A stretch of 20,095 bases of DNA from the IMG/VR virus record IMGVR_UViG_3300031703_000074, positions 1 through 20,095 of that record; one strand, 5' to 3'. This document shows, piece after piece, positions 2,665-15,215 of the stretch. This stretch comes from a virus. How positions within the stretch are numbered: the stretch's first letter is position 1; every line of letters starts with the position of its first letter. Made by a program: the position numbers and the translations under genes. The notes below the pieces were generated by a model. That model had not been told where the DNA came from and searched no databases. It was given only the letters and a program-made list of their open reading frames with translations.

Positions 2665-4380
2665 TTATTTAATTTTACTAAAGTTGCGATCTTTTATGAA
2701 TTCGATCTTACTGCGGAACTTACTCTCTAATATCTCACCCTTATGTGAGATGACGAACACATTGGTACCTTCATCTAACGTATTAAGGATTTTCATTAGA
2801 TTTTCTACACCATCATGATCCATGGATGAATCAAAAGTCTCATCGAGTATCAATAAGTTTGTGTTAGTAGAATTCTTCATACGTGCAATTTGACGCCATG
2901 TGAACATTAGTGCCAAATCGATACGTGTCTTTTCGCCTTCAGAGAATGATTCATATGAGAAGTTATCCCTATGGCGTGAACGTATACTTTCATCAAAGTT
3001 CTCATCTAGATTAAATGACACAAAAAAGTCAAGAATCTGTAGGTAACTATTGATTAACTTATTCATTACAGGCAAGTATTCTTTAATTACCTTAGTCTTA
3101 ATGCCTGTGTCCTTTAGCATTTCTGCGATGACGATAGCATATGAAATCTCTTCGTTGATCTGATACTTACGATCTGAAAGTTGTAACTTAGTCTCTTGCA
3201 ATTCATTTAGTTCAAGCTTAGCCTTTTCAATGTCGCTATTACTTGCAGTACTATTAAGGATTTCTGATTCAAGCGTTGCAATATTAGCATCGACATTGGC
3301 GATATTAGCTTCGGTAAGTTTGAGTGTCATCTTTATGTCACGCTTCTTTTTTAGCTTATCGCTAATAGTTTCAATGGTATTCAATACCTCACTGAATTCA
3401 GTCTCAAGTGTATTCTTAGTGGTTATCCTTGATTTAGCGTTGTTACTAATATCAGATATTTTAGACTTACGCAATGATTCATCTATTATCTGTGTACAAG
3501 AAGGGCACTCATCGTTCGATGAATAGAACTTAGATTCAGTCATTAGAACCTTTAATTCGTTATTTAAGGTGTGCAGATCCATAGTTAGAGCAGTCTTTCT
3601 ATCAGAAATAGAGCTTAAGCTTGACTCTGTGATAGTATCAAATTCATCCAACCATTCATTAAGGTTATCCTTTTCAGACGTATATCCTGCCTTGTCACCT
3701 TTAAACTTCGTGATAGATTCACGTTTAGTTTCTGCAATACTCTCAGAAGCCTTTGCCATATCCTTAATATACTTTGACTGCATATCAATCTTTGAGGACT
3801 GAAGAGTAATCTCTTGAGTGATAGACTTATAGTCTTCCTTAATACGTGCTGAGTTCTCTTTAAGTAATCCATTCATTTTAGAGAATATATTGATGTCTAA
3901 CAAGTCTTCAATTACTTCACGCCGATACGAAGATTTAAGCTGCATAAACGGTACAAAGGAAGATGATCCTAATACTACAATCTGATGGAAAGACTTATGG
4001 TTAAGCTTTAGAATATTCTGTTCTAAATACTTCTGATAGTCACGAGTGGTTGAGCTCTGATTAATCATATGGCCATTCTGCCATATCTCAAAGATACCTG
4101 GCTTAATACCACGTTTAATCTCAAACTTATGATTACCGATATCGAACTTAACCGTAACCTCACAGTTCTTCATATTAATAGAGTTAAGCAATGCTGGCTT
4201 ATTAATATCACGATGTGGTTTACCAAACAATGCAAAAGAAATTGCATCTAAGATAGTAGACTTACCTGCACCATTTGCACCGACAATAAGAGTCGTAGGA
4301 CTACGGTCTAATTGAATTAGTGTAGGTGTATCACCAGTTGATAGAAAATTGCGGTATTCTATAGACTTAAACGTTATCAT
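2665..4380 (-). CDS. 46: Recombination nuclease ATPase subunit gp46 (Rad50/SbcC-like)
   Basis: This 571-residue protein (T4 gp46 has 560) is the SMC-like ATPase that works with gp47 to resect DNA ends for recombination-dependent replication and host DNA breakdown. The N-terminal lobe has Walker A GANGAGKS at 34-41. Two coiled-coil arms (about 170-285 and 300-425) flank a zinc hook C292-P-S-C295. The C-terminal lobe has the ABC signature SFSEGEKTR at 478-486, Walker B NLLILDETFD at 508-517 and the H-loop ISHK at 544-547. All key residues are intact. The start overlaps the end of gp47 as ATGA, so the two are translationally coupled and made together from the promoter at 5484-5456. Confidence 0.96.
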   Translation of the reverse strand: MITFKSIEYRNFLSTGDTPTLIQLDRSPTTLIVGANGAGKSTILDAISFALFGKPHRDINKPALLNSINMKNCEVTVKFDIGNHKFEIKRGIKPGIFEIWQNGHMINQSSTTRDYQKYLEQNILKLNHKSFHQIVVLGSSSFVPFMQLKSSYRREVIEDLLDINIFSKMNGLLKENSARIKEDYKSITQEITLQSSKIDMQSKYIKDMAKASESIAETKRESITKFKGDKAGYTSEKDNLNEWLDEFDTITESSLSSISDRKTALTMDLHTLNNELKVLMTESKFYSSNDECPSCTQIIDESLRKSKISDISNNAKSRITTKNTLETEFSEVLNTIETISDKLKKKRDIKMTLKLTEANIANVDANIATLESEILNSTASNSDIEKAKLELNELQETKLQLSDRKYQINEEISYAIVIAEMLKDTGIKTKVIKEYLPVMNKLINSYLQILDFFVSFNLDENFDESIRSRHRDNFSYESFSEGEKTRIDLALMFTWRQIARMKNSTNTNLLILDETFDSSMDHDGVENLMKILNTLDEGTNVFVISHKGEILESKFRSKIEFIKDRNFSKIK

Positions 4381-5426
4381 GTAATTTCCATATTTGAAGC
4401 TTCGGTATATAAAGTTTTTATAATACCTTTAATACGATCTTTATTCAATTCAGTATCAACCGCATCAACATAATCATTGAGTAGGGTAGAAGTATCTTCA
4501 ACAGATACACTTTCATCATCGACATTTTCACCCATGAATTCATCGAATGTTTCTGCAATCTTTAACTCATGTGGATTATATGAATTAACTTCGTCTACAA
4601 ACTTATCGAATAGGTATGCATCACTCTTCTCAGAGACGATGATTTTAACGAATTTATCAGTGATAACACTAAGGTCTGCATCACATCCGTTATTCCACTC
4701 TAGCTTATGGAACATTCTATGTGGATTCAATACAGGAGTAAGTTCAAGAGTTTCGGTGTCTAATATGTGGAAGTACTTAGGATCATCTGCGTCATTCCAA
4801 TAGAATTCCATCTGAGAACCTAGGTAATGAATATTATCCGTAGATGATTTAGTATGATAATGACCAGATAACACGGTATCGAAATGGCTGAATAGATTAG
4901 CATTCATACCAGTGTGACTCTTTACACCTCTCATCATCTCAAAGTTATTCAATTCTAGATGAGCACCAATGACTTTAGCCTTACATGACTTAATCCATTT
5001 AGTATATTCAACATAGTTTTGACTGTTAATCCATGGAACAAGTGCCATACGCAAAGAACCATATTTCATCACAGTCGGTTTCATAACGATATTAACATTA
5101 TTAATGTAATACCCTAAGAGTTCCTTCAATGAATTTAGTTCGTTTGTGTTCTTATAATAGACGTCATGGTTGCCAGGAATAATATCCATCATCATGCCAT
5201 TCTTCTTTAATGGATCAAGGAAGATTTCTCTATTATGGTTTAACGCTTTGAAATTAACAAACTTGCGATGATCGTAATAATCACCAAGGTGTAATACCTG
5301 TTTGATATTGTGTTTGATACAGTAAGGGAAGAAAACGTCCGAATAGAACGTTTCTTGGTATTTAAGAAACACATCTGAGGAGTTGCGAATTCCACAGTGT
5401 GTATCATTAAGGATTGCTATCTTCAA
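4377..5426 (-). CDS. 47: Recombination nuclease subunit gp47 (Mre11/SbcD-like)
   Basis: This 349-residue protein (T4 gp47 has 339) is the metallophosphoesterase nuclease of the gp46/gp47 complex. The calcineurin-like metal-binding motifs are in order: LNDTH with D8 and H10, GDYYDHR at 48-54, GNHD at 85-88, GAHLEL at 154-159 and SGHYH at 187-191. The C-terminus (about 270-349) is acidic and probably contacts gp46. The start codon is TTG at 5426-5424, with GAGG seven bases upstream; there is no in-frame ATG nearby, and the next residues KIAILNDTH line up with the family N-terminus. It is the first gene of the gp47-gp46 unit and ends in an ATGA overlap with gp46. Confidence 0.95.
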   Translation of the reverse strand: MKIAILNDTHCGIRNSSDVFLKYQETFYSDVFFPYCIKHNIKQVLHLGDYYDHRKFVNFKALNHNREIFLDPLKKNGMMMDIIPGNHDVYYKNTNELNSLKELLGYYINNVNIVMKPTVMKYGSLRMALVPWINSQNYVEYTKWIKSCKAKVIGAHLELNNFEMMRGVKSHTGMNANLFSHFDTVLSGHYHTKSSTDNIHYLGSQMEFYWNDADDPKYFHILDTETLELTPVLNPHRMFHKLEWNNGCDADLSVITDKFVKIIVSEKSDAYLFDKFVDEVNSYNPHELKIAETFDEFMGENVDDESVSVEDTSTLLNDYVDAVDTELNKDRIKGIIKTLYTEASNMEIT

Positions 5427-5491: not shown

Positions 5492-6592
5492 TTACGCATA
5501 AACGGCTTCTTTTTTCAAAGGATTAGCTGGATCTACGTTTAAGTACTTTCCCCATTCTGCATAGAAGTGACGCATACCAACTTCGTCATGAATAGTATTA
5601 TTTTCATGTCTGCCGTGCAGTATATTCCTTCGTTCAGTACCAGGAGCCATTGCTACACCTTGACCTGTAACTGCTAATAAGTCTTCGTGCAAGTTACGTC
5701 CGAATGGTCCCCATATAGTATTATGATGATCTATACGCTTCTTGCGATCTTCAGCAGAATCACTTAATAGGCCATATCCACGGAACTCAATTAATACGCT
5801 ATCTGGTCCTAATGGTGTAATACTATCTGTGCGGTATGCAGAGCCTCGAAGATTAAAGTTATATCCTGGAAACAAGTCTACCATATACCATTGATTAGGA
5901 GGAACGCCAGGAAAACTTAATGCGCCACGATCTCCTGCACCTTCAAACTTATCATACTGTACTTCAAAGCTACCTACGTTTACATGTCCGTTATCAAATC
6001 CTGTACAAGGACGGGCAAAGTAATCATCGTTAAAGCCAGTAATGCGATTGAAGTAATGCAAATAGTCATGGTAAAACTCACTATTAGTATCATGCCATAG
6101 CTTATAGTTTGTTGGAATAATTGCTTTATGATAGTGAAATACCTCTAGTTCTTCTGTGTCAATTGCTGTAGCAATACAGTCGAAAGATCCGTCTGTCCAT
6201 TGCTCTACGTCCATAGTTGGGTTTGTGTTTAGTGTTGTCCACACCATACCGCCGTACTTTACTTCTGAATGAAGTTCCCTACTAGTTTTAATGACTTCTT
6301 CTAAATGTGTATGACCATGTGAAATATTACCAGATACACCGGTAATTCCAGGATTAATATAACATCCAATGCGCTCACCAAGATTTATGATAATAATATT
6401 TTTAAACGCAATTTGTGATGTTCTGTAGTCACCCTTATTCTTTATCTCACTCTTATGAATGATAGGGATCCAAACTTTAGCAAATATCTCTTTAATTTCT
6501 GCTTCGTAAATTTCCTGACTACTATAACATTCGCTACTAATATGCTCAACTGATGGTTCTGATAACCAATCTTTATGACTGCGTGATGCCAT
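5492..6592 (-). CDS. Ring-hydroxylating oxygenase alpha-subunit-like protein lacking the Rieske cluster ligands
   Basis: This 366-residue protein resembles the large subunit of Rieske non-heme iron oxygenases. The N-terminal part (about 30-80) reads like a Rieske-domain edge (EIFAKVWIPIIHKSEI, NKGDYRT). The cluster-binding pattern C-x-H...C-x2-H is missing: the only cysteines are C22, C77, C139 and C196, and the region after GCYINPG is shortened. The catalytic domain is better kept: NYKLWHDTNSEFYHDYLH at 162-179 holds candidate iron ligands H175 and H179 (one residue closer together than the usual H-x4-H), and LHEDLLAVTGQG at 301-312 holds a candidate third ligand D304. The C-terminal IDHHNTIWGPFGRNL segment is typical of the family. 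I chose ATG 6592 (GGAG six bases upstream) over an in-frame TTG at 6604. It follows gp55 by 15 bases and has no promoter of its own. It is an auxiliary gene with no T4 counterpart; substrate unknown. Confidence 0.75.
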   Translation of the reverse strand: MASRSHKDWLSEPSVEHISSECYSSQEIYEAEIKEIFAKVWIPIIHKSEIKNKGDYRTSQIAFKNIIIINLGERIGCYINPGITGVSGNISHGHTHLEEVIKTSRELHSEVKYGGMVWTTLNTNPTMDVEQWTDGSFDCIATAIDTEELEVFHYHKAIIPTNYKLWHDTNSEFYHDYLHYFNRITGFNDDYFARPCTGFDNGHVNVGSFEVQYDKFEGAGDRGALSFPGVPPNQWYMVDLFPGYNFNLRGSAYRTDSITPLGPDSVLIEFRGYGLLSDSAEDRKKRIDHHNTIWGPFGRNLHEDLLAVTGQGVAMAPGTERRNILHGRHENNTIHDEVGMRHFYAEWGKYLNVDPANPLKKEAVYA

Positions 6593-6598
6593 GGTCTT

Positions 6599-6602
6599 CT
6601 CC
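6599..6602 (-). promoter_or_regulatory. Ribosome binding site deciding the oxygenase-like gene start
   Basis: GGAG on the minus strand sits six bases before ATG 6592-6590. It overlaps the alternative in-frame TTG at 6604, which makes the ATG the better start. Confidence 0.7.
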
Positions 6603-6607
6603 AACGT

Positions 6608-7195
6608 TTATTCGTTTAATTCTTTTTCCATAAACTTGCCAAGATTCTTCTCCTGTGACAATATTTTATGCTTAACATGCAACTGTTCAGGCTCTTTACT
6701 ATTAGTCTCTTTCTCTCTAATTTTATCGTAATTAGTCCTGAGCTCTTCAATAAATGCTGTATCATAATCACCATTATTGTCCGCAGTCACAAACTCATCA
6801 AATCCTGACATTTCGATGTATTTGAATTTAATGTCATGCTGACGTTTTTCTTTAGCAATCCGACGTAAGAATGCAAACCAAGAGATTTGTGTAAAGTATG
6901 CAAAGGCATTAGGCTTACCTGTTCTGGTAGCAGCTTCAATATTATAATTTTTAATTGCCTTTAGACAGTTTTCAACTGCATCCATAACCATCTCATCTCT
7001 ATAGGAGTACCTAATGAAATTAGATTTATGAGATAGTCCCTCTGAAATCTTCATAAAGCAAGACGCAATATAATCAGTTACCTTAGGAAAATCTTCTTCT
7101 GCAGCTTCGGCATCATTAACGGTTTTAACGTAGGCCACAACAGCTTCTGAGAATTCCCTATTGTTAACGTAATGTTCTCTCTCTTTAGGTTTCAT
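6608..7195 (-). CDS. 55: Late-transcription sigma factor gp55
   Basis: This 195-residue protein (T4 gp55 has 185) is the small sigma-70-family factor that directs host RNA polymerase to the TATAAATA late promoters. Shared features with T4 gp55 are the early YVNNREF (T4 YVNNKEL), ISEGLSHKSNFIRYSYRDEMVMDAVENCLKAIKNYN (the region-2-like helices), and the PNAFAYFTQISWFAFLRRIAKEKRQ segment. AGAGA precedes the ATG at 7195. It is the first gene behind the minus-strand promoter at 7254-7226, and the oxygenase-like gene follows. Four TATAAATA boxes in this window are its expected targets. Confidence 0.93.
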   Translation of the reverse strand: MKPKEREHYVNNREFSEAVVAYVKTVNDAEAAEEDFPKVTDYIASCFMKISEGLSHKSNFIRYSYRDEMVMDAVENCLKAIKNYNIEAATRTGKPNAFAYFTQISWFAFLRRIAKEKRQHDIKFKYIEMSGFDEFVTADNNGDYDTAFIEELRTNYDKIREKETNSKEPEQLHVKHKILSQEKNLGKFMEKELNE

Positions 7196-9329: not shown

Positions 9330-9788
9330 TTATTCGAAAAGGAACTCTGAGTATCTAAAAGAAACATCAAAGGTTAGGTATTCTTCTGACTGTGAAGTGA
9401 ATGCTAACTGAGCAATGTTTGTAGGAAATGCATCCTTATACCTTATAGTCTTCACTACATTACTATGTGACGAAAGCACCTGCAAGGATATATCCTCTGT
9501 TACCGATTTTTGTGATTGCACCACACTTTTCAGCCACTCGACCATTTCAATATATGAAGTCATATTTTCGTCGATTATAATTGATACTGTTAATGTGCCA
9601 TAACTTACCGTATCACCTGGTATAAAACTGTTAAGACCTGGAATGTTTAATGTGCCTTCACCAACGAATACATCCGGATGATTCACCGCAGTGCAAAAAT
9701 ACTCTGTGTTGGCATATCGTGTACTATCTATAACTAGCTTAAATCCTATTGGATTTAAATAGTTTTTATTCGTCGTTAGTGTTGCCAT
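9330..9788 (-). CDS. Second tail-tube-fold protein (gp19 paralogue)
   Basis: This 152-residue protein resembles the tail tube protein gp19 encoded at 15215-14682. Shared points along the fold are an N-terminal F-x-L strand, a central strand pair ending GTLTVSIIIDENM (gp19: WGLTIINDTDM), the helix EMVEWLKSV (gp19: AFEKWMNSI), then YKDAFPTNIAQLAF (gp19: FRDVWPTNLSAIEL) and EYLTFDVSFRYSEF (gp19: EEFTVELQLSYWEA). The start is ATG 9788, with GGAG eight bases before it. It is the first gene behind a late promoter at 9816-9809, after the gp23 terminator. Cyanophages usually have a gene labelled gp3 between genes 23 and uvsY, so it may fill that role. It could be a tube cap, tube initiator or minor tube component; the exact role is not resolved. 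Confidence 0.7.
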   Translation of the reverse strand: MATLTTNKNYLNPIGFKLVIDSTRYANTEYFCTAVNHPDVFVGEGTLNIPGLNSFIPGDTVSYGTLTVSIIIDENMTSYIEMVEWLKSVVQSQKSVTEDISLQVLSSHSNVVKTIRYKDAFPTNIAQLAFTSQSEEYLTFDVSFRYSEFLFE

Positions 9789-9796
9789 ATTACGTT

Positions 9797-9800
9797 CTCC
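9797..9800 (-). promoter_or_regulatory. Ribosome binding site deciding the start at 9788
   Basis: GGAG on the minus strand lies eight bases before ATG 9788. An upstream in-frame start near 9821 would fall inside the terminator and ahead of the late promoter, so it is excluded. Confidence 0.75.
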
Positions 9801-9808
9801 TATACCAC

Positions 9809-9816
9809 TATTTATA
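9809..9816 (-). promoter_or_regulatory. T4-type late promoter TATAAATA
   Basis: A perfect TATAAATA box on the minus strand, placed directly after the gp23 terminator. Transcription would begin about six bases further on, near 9803, giving a leader of roughly 15 bases with the ribosome binding site for the gene at 9788. Confidence 0.85.
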
Positions 9817-9821
9817 CGCAT

Positions 9822-14681: not shown

Positions 14682-15215
14682 CTAAGTAGTAATACCCGCT
14701 GCTTCCCAATAAGAAAGCTGCAATTCAACTGTGAATTCTTCAATTGTATCAGTCGAGTCATATGATAACTCAATGGCTGATAAGTTAGTAGGCCATACGT
14801 CACGGAAATCGTAACGCTTAACTACTTCACCAGCTTTATCTAATTGCTCAATTGCCATATCACATATATATTCATTTGGATTAGAAGCACCACCACCATC
14901 TGTGTGATGGTTGATACTGTTCATCCACTTTTCAAATGCATTACGTACTGCCATGTCAGTATCATTTATAATGGTCAAACCCCAAGGTTCGAACGTACGA
15001 TCCCCGGCAATTTGAAGTTGTCTTCCACGGAAAGGAATTGTGATAGGAGCAATTACCGATGAGGGTAACTGTGCTGCCTTACACATAAATGATGCTTTGG
15101 AAGAATCTCCTGCATCAATTCCTGCTGGGAAGTTAAGAGTAGCGCGGAACAAGTTTGGACGAGCACCACCACCACTTAATTTAGCTTTAAAATCATCTAC
15201 ACTAAGAGCTGCCAT
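14682..15215 (-). CDS. 19: Tail tube protein gp19
   Basis: This 177-residue protein (T4 gp19 has 163) polymerises into the inner tube of the contractile tail. It shows the family pattern LFRATLNFPAG near residue 22, KAAQLPSSVIAPITIPFRGRQLQIAGDR near 47-74 and EPWGLTIINDTDMAVRNAFEKWMNSINHH, ending with DFRDVWPTNLSAIELSYDSTDTIEEFTVELQLSYWEA. AAGGAGAT lies just before the ATG at 15215, a very strong binding site fitting a protein needed in many copies. It follows gp18 by 11 bases. A related gene lies at 9788-9330. Confidence 0.95.
   Translation of the reverse strand: MAALSVDDFKAKLSGGGARPNLFRATLNFPAGIDAGDSSKASFMCKAAQLPSSVIAPITIPFRGRQLQIAGDRTFEPWGLTIINDTDMAVRNAFEKWMNSINHHTDGGGASNPNEYICDMAIEQLDKAGEVVKRYDFRDVWPTNLSAIELSYDSTDTIEEFTVELQLSYWEAAGITT

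Follow-up and report, generated by a model that had tools for sequence, protein, structure and literature searches.

A phage-borne homologue of MsmA lacking the Rieske cluster site, probable catalytic half of a divided oxygenase

Introduction

Where would a Rieske oxygenase obtain its electrons if the cluster that hands them over is missing from its catalytic chain? This question is raised by a gene found in a 20,095-nucleotide stretch of viral DNA (positions 1 to 20,095 of the IMG/VR record IMGVR_UViG_3300031703_000074, hereafter the window), whose product is a homologue of Rieske oxygenase alpha subunits without the cluster site. An initial annotation, made from the sequence alone, argued that such a protein must get its electrons by another route or be no classic enzyme, which we judge right for an alpha chain of this kind.

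The bare observation is already known, since Henriques and De Marco (2015) reported, without a mechanism, that the 'MsmA' of phage HMO-2011, of GOS and of viromes, as well as one of the two copies of the SAR116 bacterium IMCC1322, have no Rieske motif (PMC4433239). A review treats the HMO-2011 protein as MsmA and speculates that it oxidises MSA (PMC4928673), and marine virome papers list viral 'msmA' as an organosulfur gene. Among the open-licence papers we have found no proposal of a mechanism for a Rieske-less MsmA-type protein.

The viral protein and its metal sites

The features of the window that concern us here are the following (the last two are context, outside the system itself).

5492..6592, minus strand: the iron half, an MsmA-clade Rieske oxygenase alpha homologue without Rieske cluster site, 366 aa
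6056..6094, minus strand: HDTNSEFYHDYLH, residues 167-179, with the bridging E172 and the predicted iron ligands H175 and H179 (ligand role assigned by homology)
5678..5689, minus strand: HEDL, residues 302-305, with the predicted third iron ligand D304 (invariant; ligand role assigned by homology)
6275..6361, minus strand: shortened variable stretch, residues 78-106, at the place of the CXH-X26-CXXH cluster loops of complete MsmA
6596..6602, minus strand: GGAGAAG, likely ribosome-binding site of the iron-half gene, 3 nt before the ATG
6608..7195, minus strand: gp55-like late sigma factor gene, just upstream (phrog_234, E 1e-50)
4377..5426, minus strand: gp47/SbcD-like gene, just downstream (phrog_100, E 1e-96)

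The reading frame starts with an ATG at 6592. Its product matches the catalytic domain of Rieske oxygenases (PF00848) just above the cut-off (26.2 bits, cut-off 24.9), has no match to the Rieske domain PF00355 in Pfam and finds no informative family in PHROGs. Over the N-terminal 60-70 residues there is a resemblance to carnitine oxygenase CntA, among others. A structure model built on 48 homologues (pLDDT 86.6, pTM 0.87), which supersedes an earlier one from 21 close sequences (pLDDT 67), superposes on the alpha subunits of naphthalene, terephthalate and biphenyl dioxygenases and on salicylate 5-hydroxylase with Z scores of 30-33 over ~330 residues. The claim that the outline of a ring-hydroxylating oxygenase alpha subunit is kept therefore holds, and superposition on naphthalene dioxygenase, the check suggested in the initial annotation, gave an agreeing fold; an unrelated fold is ruled out (Z ~32). 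Searching a viral structure library with the model returned no close match by name.

The absence of a cluster site was borne out as well. The pattern C-x-H...C-x2-H does not occur in the protein, whose four cysteines (C22, C77, C139 and C196) are scattered, C139 being the only one invariant among 48 aligned sequences. The loop described as shortened corresponds to residues 78-106, which are indeed short and variable compared with complete MsmA. On the other hand, the alignment of viral homologues that had been proposed as a check shows H175 and H179 (H-x3-H), H302-E303-D304 and E172 present and invariant in every one of them. The 2-His-1-carboxylate ligands and the bridging carboxylate (H175, H179, D304 and E172), all predicted, line up with those of complete MsmA, and in the Rieske oxygenase family the glutamate at the position of E172 faces the cluster of the neighbour subunit. 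Among the Rieske-less homologues of phages and cells, 56/56 keep the E/H/H/D set and 0/56 the cluster ligands, and the E, H and H of the motif at residues 167-179 are likewise invariant in 25/25 complete MsmA. One detail of the initial annotation did not survive: H175 and H179 had been described as one residue too close, and this is the normal spacing of the clade, because complete MsmA and the Rieske-less cellular group both carry NYKLWHDTN[SC]EFYHD[YF][ML]H. As judged from its residues, the protein is Rieske-oxygenase alpha-like, belongs to the MsmA clade, and has the mononuclear-iron residues complete and no [2Fe-2S] ligands.

Genome context in the phage

The window comes from a T4-like phage and encodes proteins that match the PHROGs named portal, terminase, tail tube, tail sheath stabiliser and major head protein. 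Among its nearest cultured relatives by terminase and capsid are the pelagiphage HTVC008M, Phage C48C1 and the Melnitz OM43 phages, for which the hosts are OM43 or SAR11, or none is stated. Two different window proteins match phrog_45 (tail tube), at 9330-9821 (E 5e-28) and at 14682-15215 on the minus strand (E 5e-66); in C48C1 a 'tail tube' gene is also found after the major head gene.

The iron-half gene lies 15 nt from the gp55-like gene and 65 nt from the gp47/SbcD-like gene. It had been read as co-transcribed with gp55; the same-strand adjacency and the short gap stand, and no T4-type late promoter (TATAAATA) was found on the minus strand of 5492-7195. Among the viral loci examined, the adjacency to gp55 is specific to one lineage (L001, L002 and L011 only). 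C48C1 and Melnitz, its cultured T4-like relatives, have a gp47-type gene directly after gp55, so that the oxygenase gene has the look of an insert within a row of core genes. Since it resembles cargo of this sort, its position next to gp55 says little about function, and a role linked to gp55 transcription was rejected, the adjacency being local. On other phage contigs with an iron half, this neighbourhood contains genes for ribonucleotide reductase or radical SAM proteins (L034 124-2457; L015 10050-13007).

Relatives in viruses and marine bacteria

IMG/VR contains at least 598 stretches with a gene for a relative of the window protein. Within the phage collection, HMO-2011 (two records) is alone in having a close copy; it infects IMCC1322. 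Its protein (ADW08429.1, 'methanesulfonate monooxygenase hydroxylase alpha subunit') is 65% identical to the window protein over 99% of the length and, like it, has no Rieske motif, although the phage is of another type and the gene neighbourhood differs. Ratios of dN/dS between 0.05 and 0.13 in phage pairs indicate purifying selection on the gene. A sequencing or frame artefact and a pseudogene are ruled out by these low ratios together with the hundreds of homologues.

The bacterial relatives fall into two groups, complete MsmA (409-430 aa, with CXH-X26-CXXH) and Rieske-less proteins (362-364 aa). The latter come from SAR116 and from a small number of other marine alphaproteobacterial bins, and their identity to the window protein is 63-69%. 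Two further Rieske-less rows, L083 and L084, were not counted in the cellular set; the contig of L083 has the same length as a viral contig in the IMG/VR list. The long-spacer motif CXH-X26-CXXH, the hallmark of MsmA, has been used to define its Rieske site (PMC4433239) and is absent from the window protein, for which the closest Rieske-containing proteins found are precisely these X26-spacer MsmA; trees also place it in this clade. The two share identical catalytic motifs, H-x3-H included, with 48-55% identity over the whole protein and 62-70% over about residues 105-362. The window protein is ~50 residues shorter, mostly around the missing CXH-X26-CXXH. A further difference is that MsmA is encoded with a beta subunit, a ferredoxin and a reductase, as are most cellular orthologues of the window protein, while none of these genes was found in the viral flanks examined.

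The Rieske-bearing chain described below was also sought in phages. Two scans of viral contigs, one of them using an alignment of the motif-bearing part, yielded no relatives of it, and no PF00355 match above the cut-off was present in 21 phage records of up to 221 kb. Subthreshold matches covered the first half of the Rieske profile only, within frames of 358-373 aa, and are interpreted as hits on the N-terminal part of the iron half; one weaker subthreshold match in HMO-2011 falls within a 49-aa frame. On the evidence of these searches, the phages carry the iron half only.

A complementary protein in SAR116

Near the Rieske-less gene, cellular genomes encode a product of ~800 aa in which a FAD pyridine-nucleotide reductase is joined to an MsmA-like part bearing the X26 Rieske motif. 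This complementary partner, a Rieske-bearing protein without iron site, was missing from the initial annotation, whose overall reading is to this extent supported only in part. In the alignment, 14/14 of these Rieske halves keep all four cluster ligands (C, H, C, H) and have a decayed iron site: none of the 14 retains the aspartate or the first histidine, and 13/14 lack the second histidine. Neither the HDTN...H motif nor HEDL occurs in any full-length copy of the fusion, and the catalytic domain as a whole is much changed. In one genome (G089, 2,753,527 bp), which encodes both halves and which we take to be IMCC1322, the decay can be read residue by residue, EFYHDFMH having become KFHQDFMK, and the segment around HEDL is gone.

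The degree of conservation of the two sites follows the same division. The cluster loop is 97% identical among Rieske halves and 74% identical between them and complete MsmA; for phage iron halves against complete MsmA the figure is 5%. Identity to complete MsmA in the first iron motif is 16% for the Rieske half and 79% for the phage iron half. In terms of sequence conservation, this shows the two halves under mirror-image constraint.

Two other arrangements deserve mention. In one genome (G002:C5:71188-73571; L174, L179) the Rieske half and the reductase part are in two frames, possibly by a frameshift or possibly as a real unfused pair. At a complete-MsmA locus (L105 6883-8187) the reductase is encoded separately; sharing 60% identity with the reductase portion of the fusion, it may represent an unfused forerunner.

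Co-occurrence and gene neighbourhood

Fifteen genomes have a cellular iron half. The fusion was found in one frame in 12 of them, in two frames in one (G002), as a piece at a contig edge in another (G007) and not at all in the last, a fragmentary bin (G015); G001 has two copies of each half. Among 136 genomes of the SAR116 order, the iron half occurs in 12, and 11 of these have the Rieske half as well by a strict count (12 with the contig-edge piece). One of the remaining genomes has a complete MsmA and the others neither half. A Fisher test of this co-occurrence, in which kinship between genomes is ignored, gives 2e-15 (strict) to 2e-17. Genomes with complete MsmA have a single MsmA-type copy (25/25), and the iron half is absent from all 25.

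Operon linkage is seen in the cells, where the iron half belongs to, or sits close to, a cluster that includes the fusion, a Rieske ferredoxin and a ring-hydroxylase beta subunit, along with a sulfonate-type ABC transporter, TauE and one-carbon genes. The surroundings of the split loci also include formate-tetrahydrofolate ligase and, in IMCC1322, dmsABC-like genes. Beta subunit and Rieske ferredoxin genes accompany most split loci and equally most complete-MsmA loci. Since these surrounding genes fit, the substrate would be methanesulfonate or a related C1-sulfur compound.

Some neighbours are recorded here in their own right. In most split loci, the cellular iron half is directly preceded by the gene of a ~275-aa protein without Pfam match (L198 13555-14385; L095 8921-9745), and relatives of it at 28-39% identity are found near some complete MsmA genes. 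In the SAR116 loci L085 and L086, a GcvT-like folate-dependent methyltransferase (L085 7561-8679) lies two genes before the iron half, and the Rieske half is ~12 kb away rather than next door.

Origin of the two halves

The Rieske halves form one clade joined to complete MsmA of the SAR116/Hyphomicrobiaceae type, and the iron halves a separate clade elsewhere in the MsmA tree. The two are therefore not the products of one recent duplication. In the tree of the whole length, cellular iron halves are nested within phage diversity (AU p 0.032 against the phages as one group), whereas in that of the catalytic domain IMCC1322 and HMO-2011 are near the base. As the two trees differ, we claim no direction of transfer. 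A bolder scenario, to which we give only a small chance, is that the iron half was a phage gene at its root, a streamlined MsmA borrowing the cluster of the host, which spread among phages and later entered SAR116, after which the resident MsmA would have lost its iron site and the host become dependent on a phage-derived subunit. One copy from a viral contig (L044 6001-7065) forms a long branch inside the cellular iron-half group, possibly a host-to-phage transfer or a mis-called contig.

A proposed divided oxygenase and its alternatives

Electrons in Rieske oxygenases pass from the cluster of one alpha subunit to the iron of its neighbour, over a distance of ~12 A (PMC12445004). Because electron transfer runs between subunits, a division of the two sites between separate chains is plausible on chemical grounds. 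We consider it likely that the window gene encodes the catalytic half of a divided MsmA-clade Rieske oxygenase, receiving its electrons across subunits from the Rieske half of the host. In SAR116, the fusion chain (with its FAD-type ferredoxin reductase) would keep the cluster and the second chain the iron, and both halves, with the beta subunit and the Rieske ferredoxin, would rebuild one working oxygenase. Electrons would pass from NADH to the flavin and then to the Rieske cluster of the fusion, from which they would cross the subunit interface to reach the iron in the iron half. During infection the phage protein would assemble with the host Rieske half, replacing or topping up the host iron half, and so keep the cleavage of methanesulfonate (or a close relative) to sulfite and formaldehyde running, to the presumed benefit of the phage. 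By the same reasoning the window phage would prey on a host with a Rieske half; in a host without one there is no obvious electron donor for the phage protein. Against this reading, the descent of the halves from different complete-MsmA lineages means that they are not simple duplicates with an inherited shared interface, and the Rieske half, for all the changes in its catalytic domain, would still have to fit into an alpha3-type ring; their physical pairing is what we infer. As to why phages carry this half, our guess, by analogy, is that the O2-activating chain may wear out first. Photosystem D1 is thought to do so in cyanophage-infected cells.

Alternatively, the iron half may stand alone, with a soluble Rieske ferredoxin or some other small carrier as its direct electron donor, the fusion being a reductase only. 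The separate Rieske ferredoxin gene of the cellular cluster and the fact that phages carry the iron half by itself would suit such an arrangement, which we nevertheless regard as improbable: a fusion that is only a reductase is hard to square with alpha-type cluster loops that stay 97% identical while the iron site decays, and the iron half has an invariant E172, the role of which is known from the family. It is less probable still that the phage protein joins the complete MsmA of other hosts in mixed rings, with activity raised or altered. The 62-70% of the catalytic domain common to both proteins could allow this, but the one known host-phage pair, IMCC1322 and HMO-2011, has the split system (if G089 is IMCC1322, as we take it to be), and no complete-MsmA genome examined has an iron half. 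Finally, a non-catalytic or interfering subunit, or a role other than oxygenase such as late transcription, might be read from the lack of an own cluster and the neighbouring gp55, and is hardly credible given the invariant iron-site residues, the purifying selection and a gp55 neighbourhood confined to a few near relatives that looks like an insertion.

A distant precedent for the divided oxygenase is the caffeine N7-demethylase NdmC/NdmD/NdmE, in which the catalytic chain has no cluster and the missing Rieske domain is on the reductase (PMC4408171). We liken the two by description: a cluster-less catalytic chain and a Rieske domain on the reductase chain are both found, at the sequence level, in the SAR116 pair, whereas a phage would depend on its host for the partner. 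Unlike in NdmCDE, the Rieske carrier here keeps a decayed MsmA catalytic domain beside its FAD pyridine-nucleotide reductase, and the catalytic half is carried by phages.

The existence of a complementary partner provides a concrete electron path for the proteins left unexplained in 2015. It suggests that a phage can take along only the catalytic part of an enzyme of its host. The system would be another Rieske oxygenase divided over two chains, beside NdmC/NdmD, and the series of host genes, of which that of IMCC1322 is the least decayed, records the loss of one of its two metal sites by an enzyme subunit.
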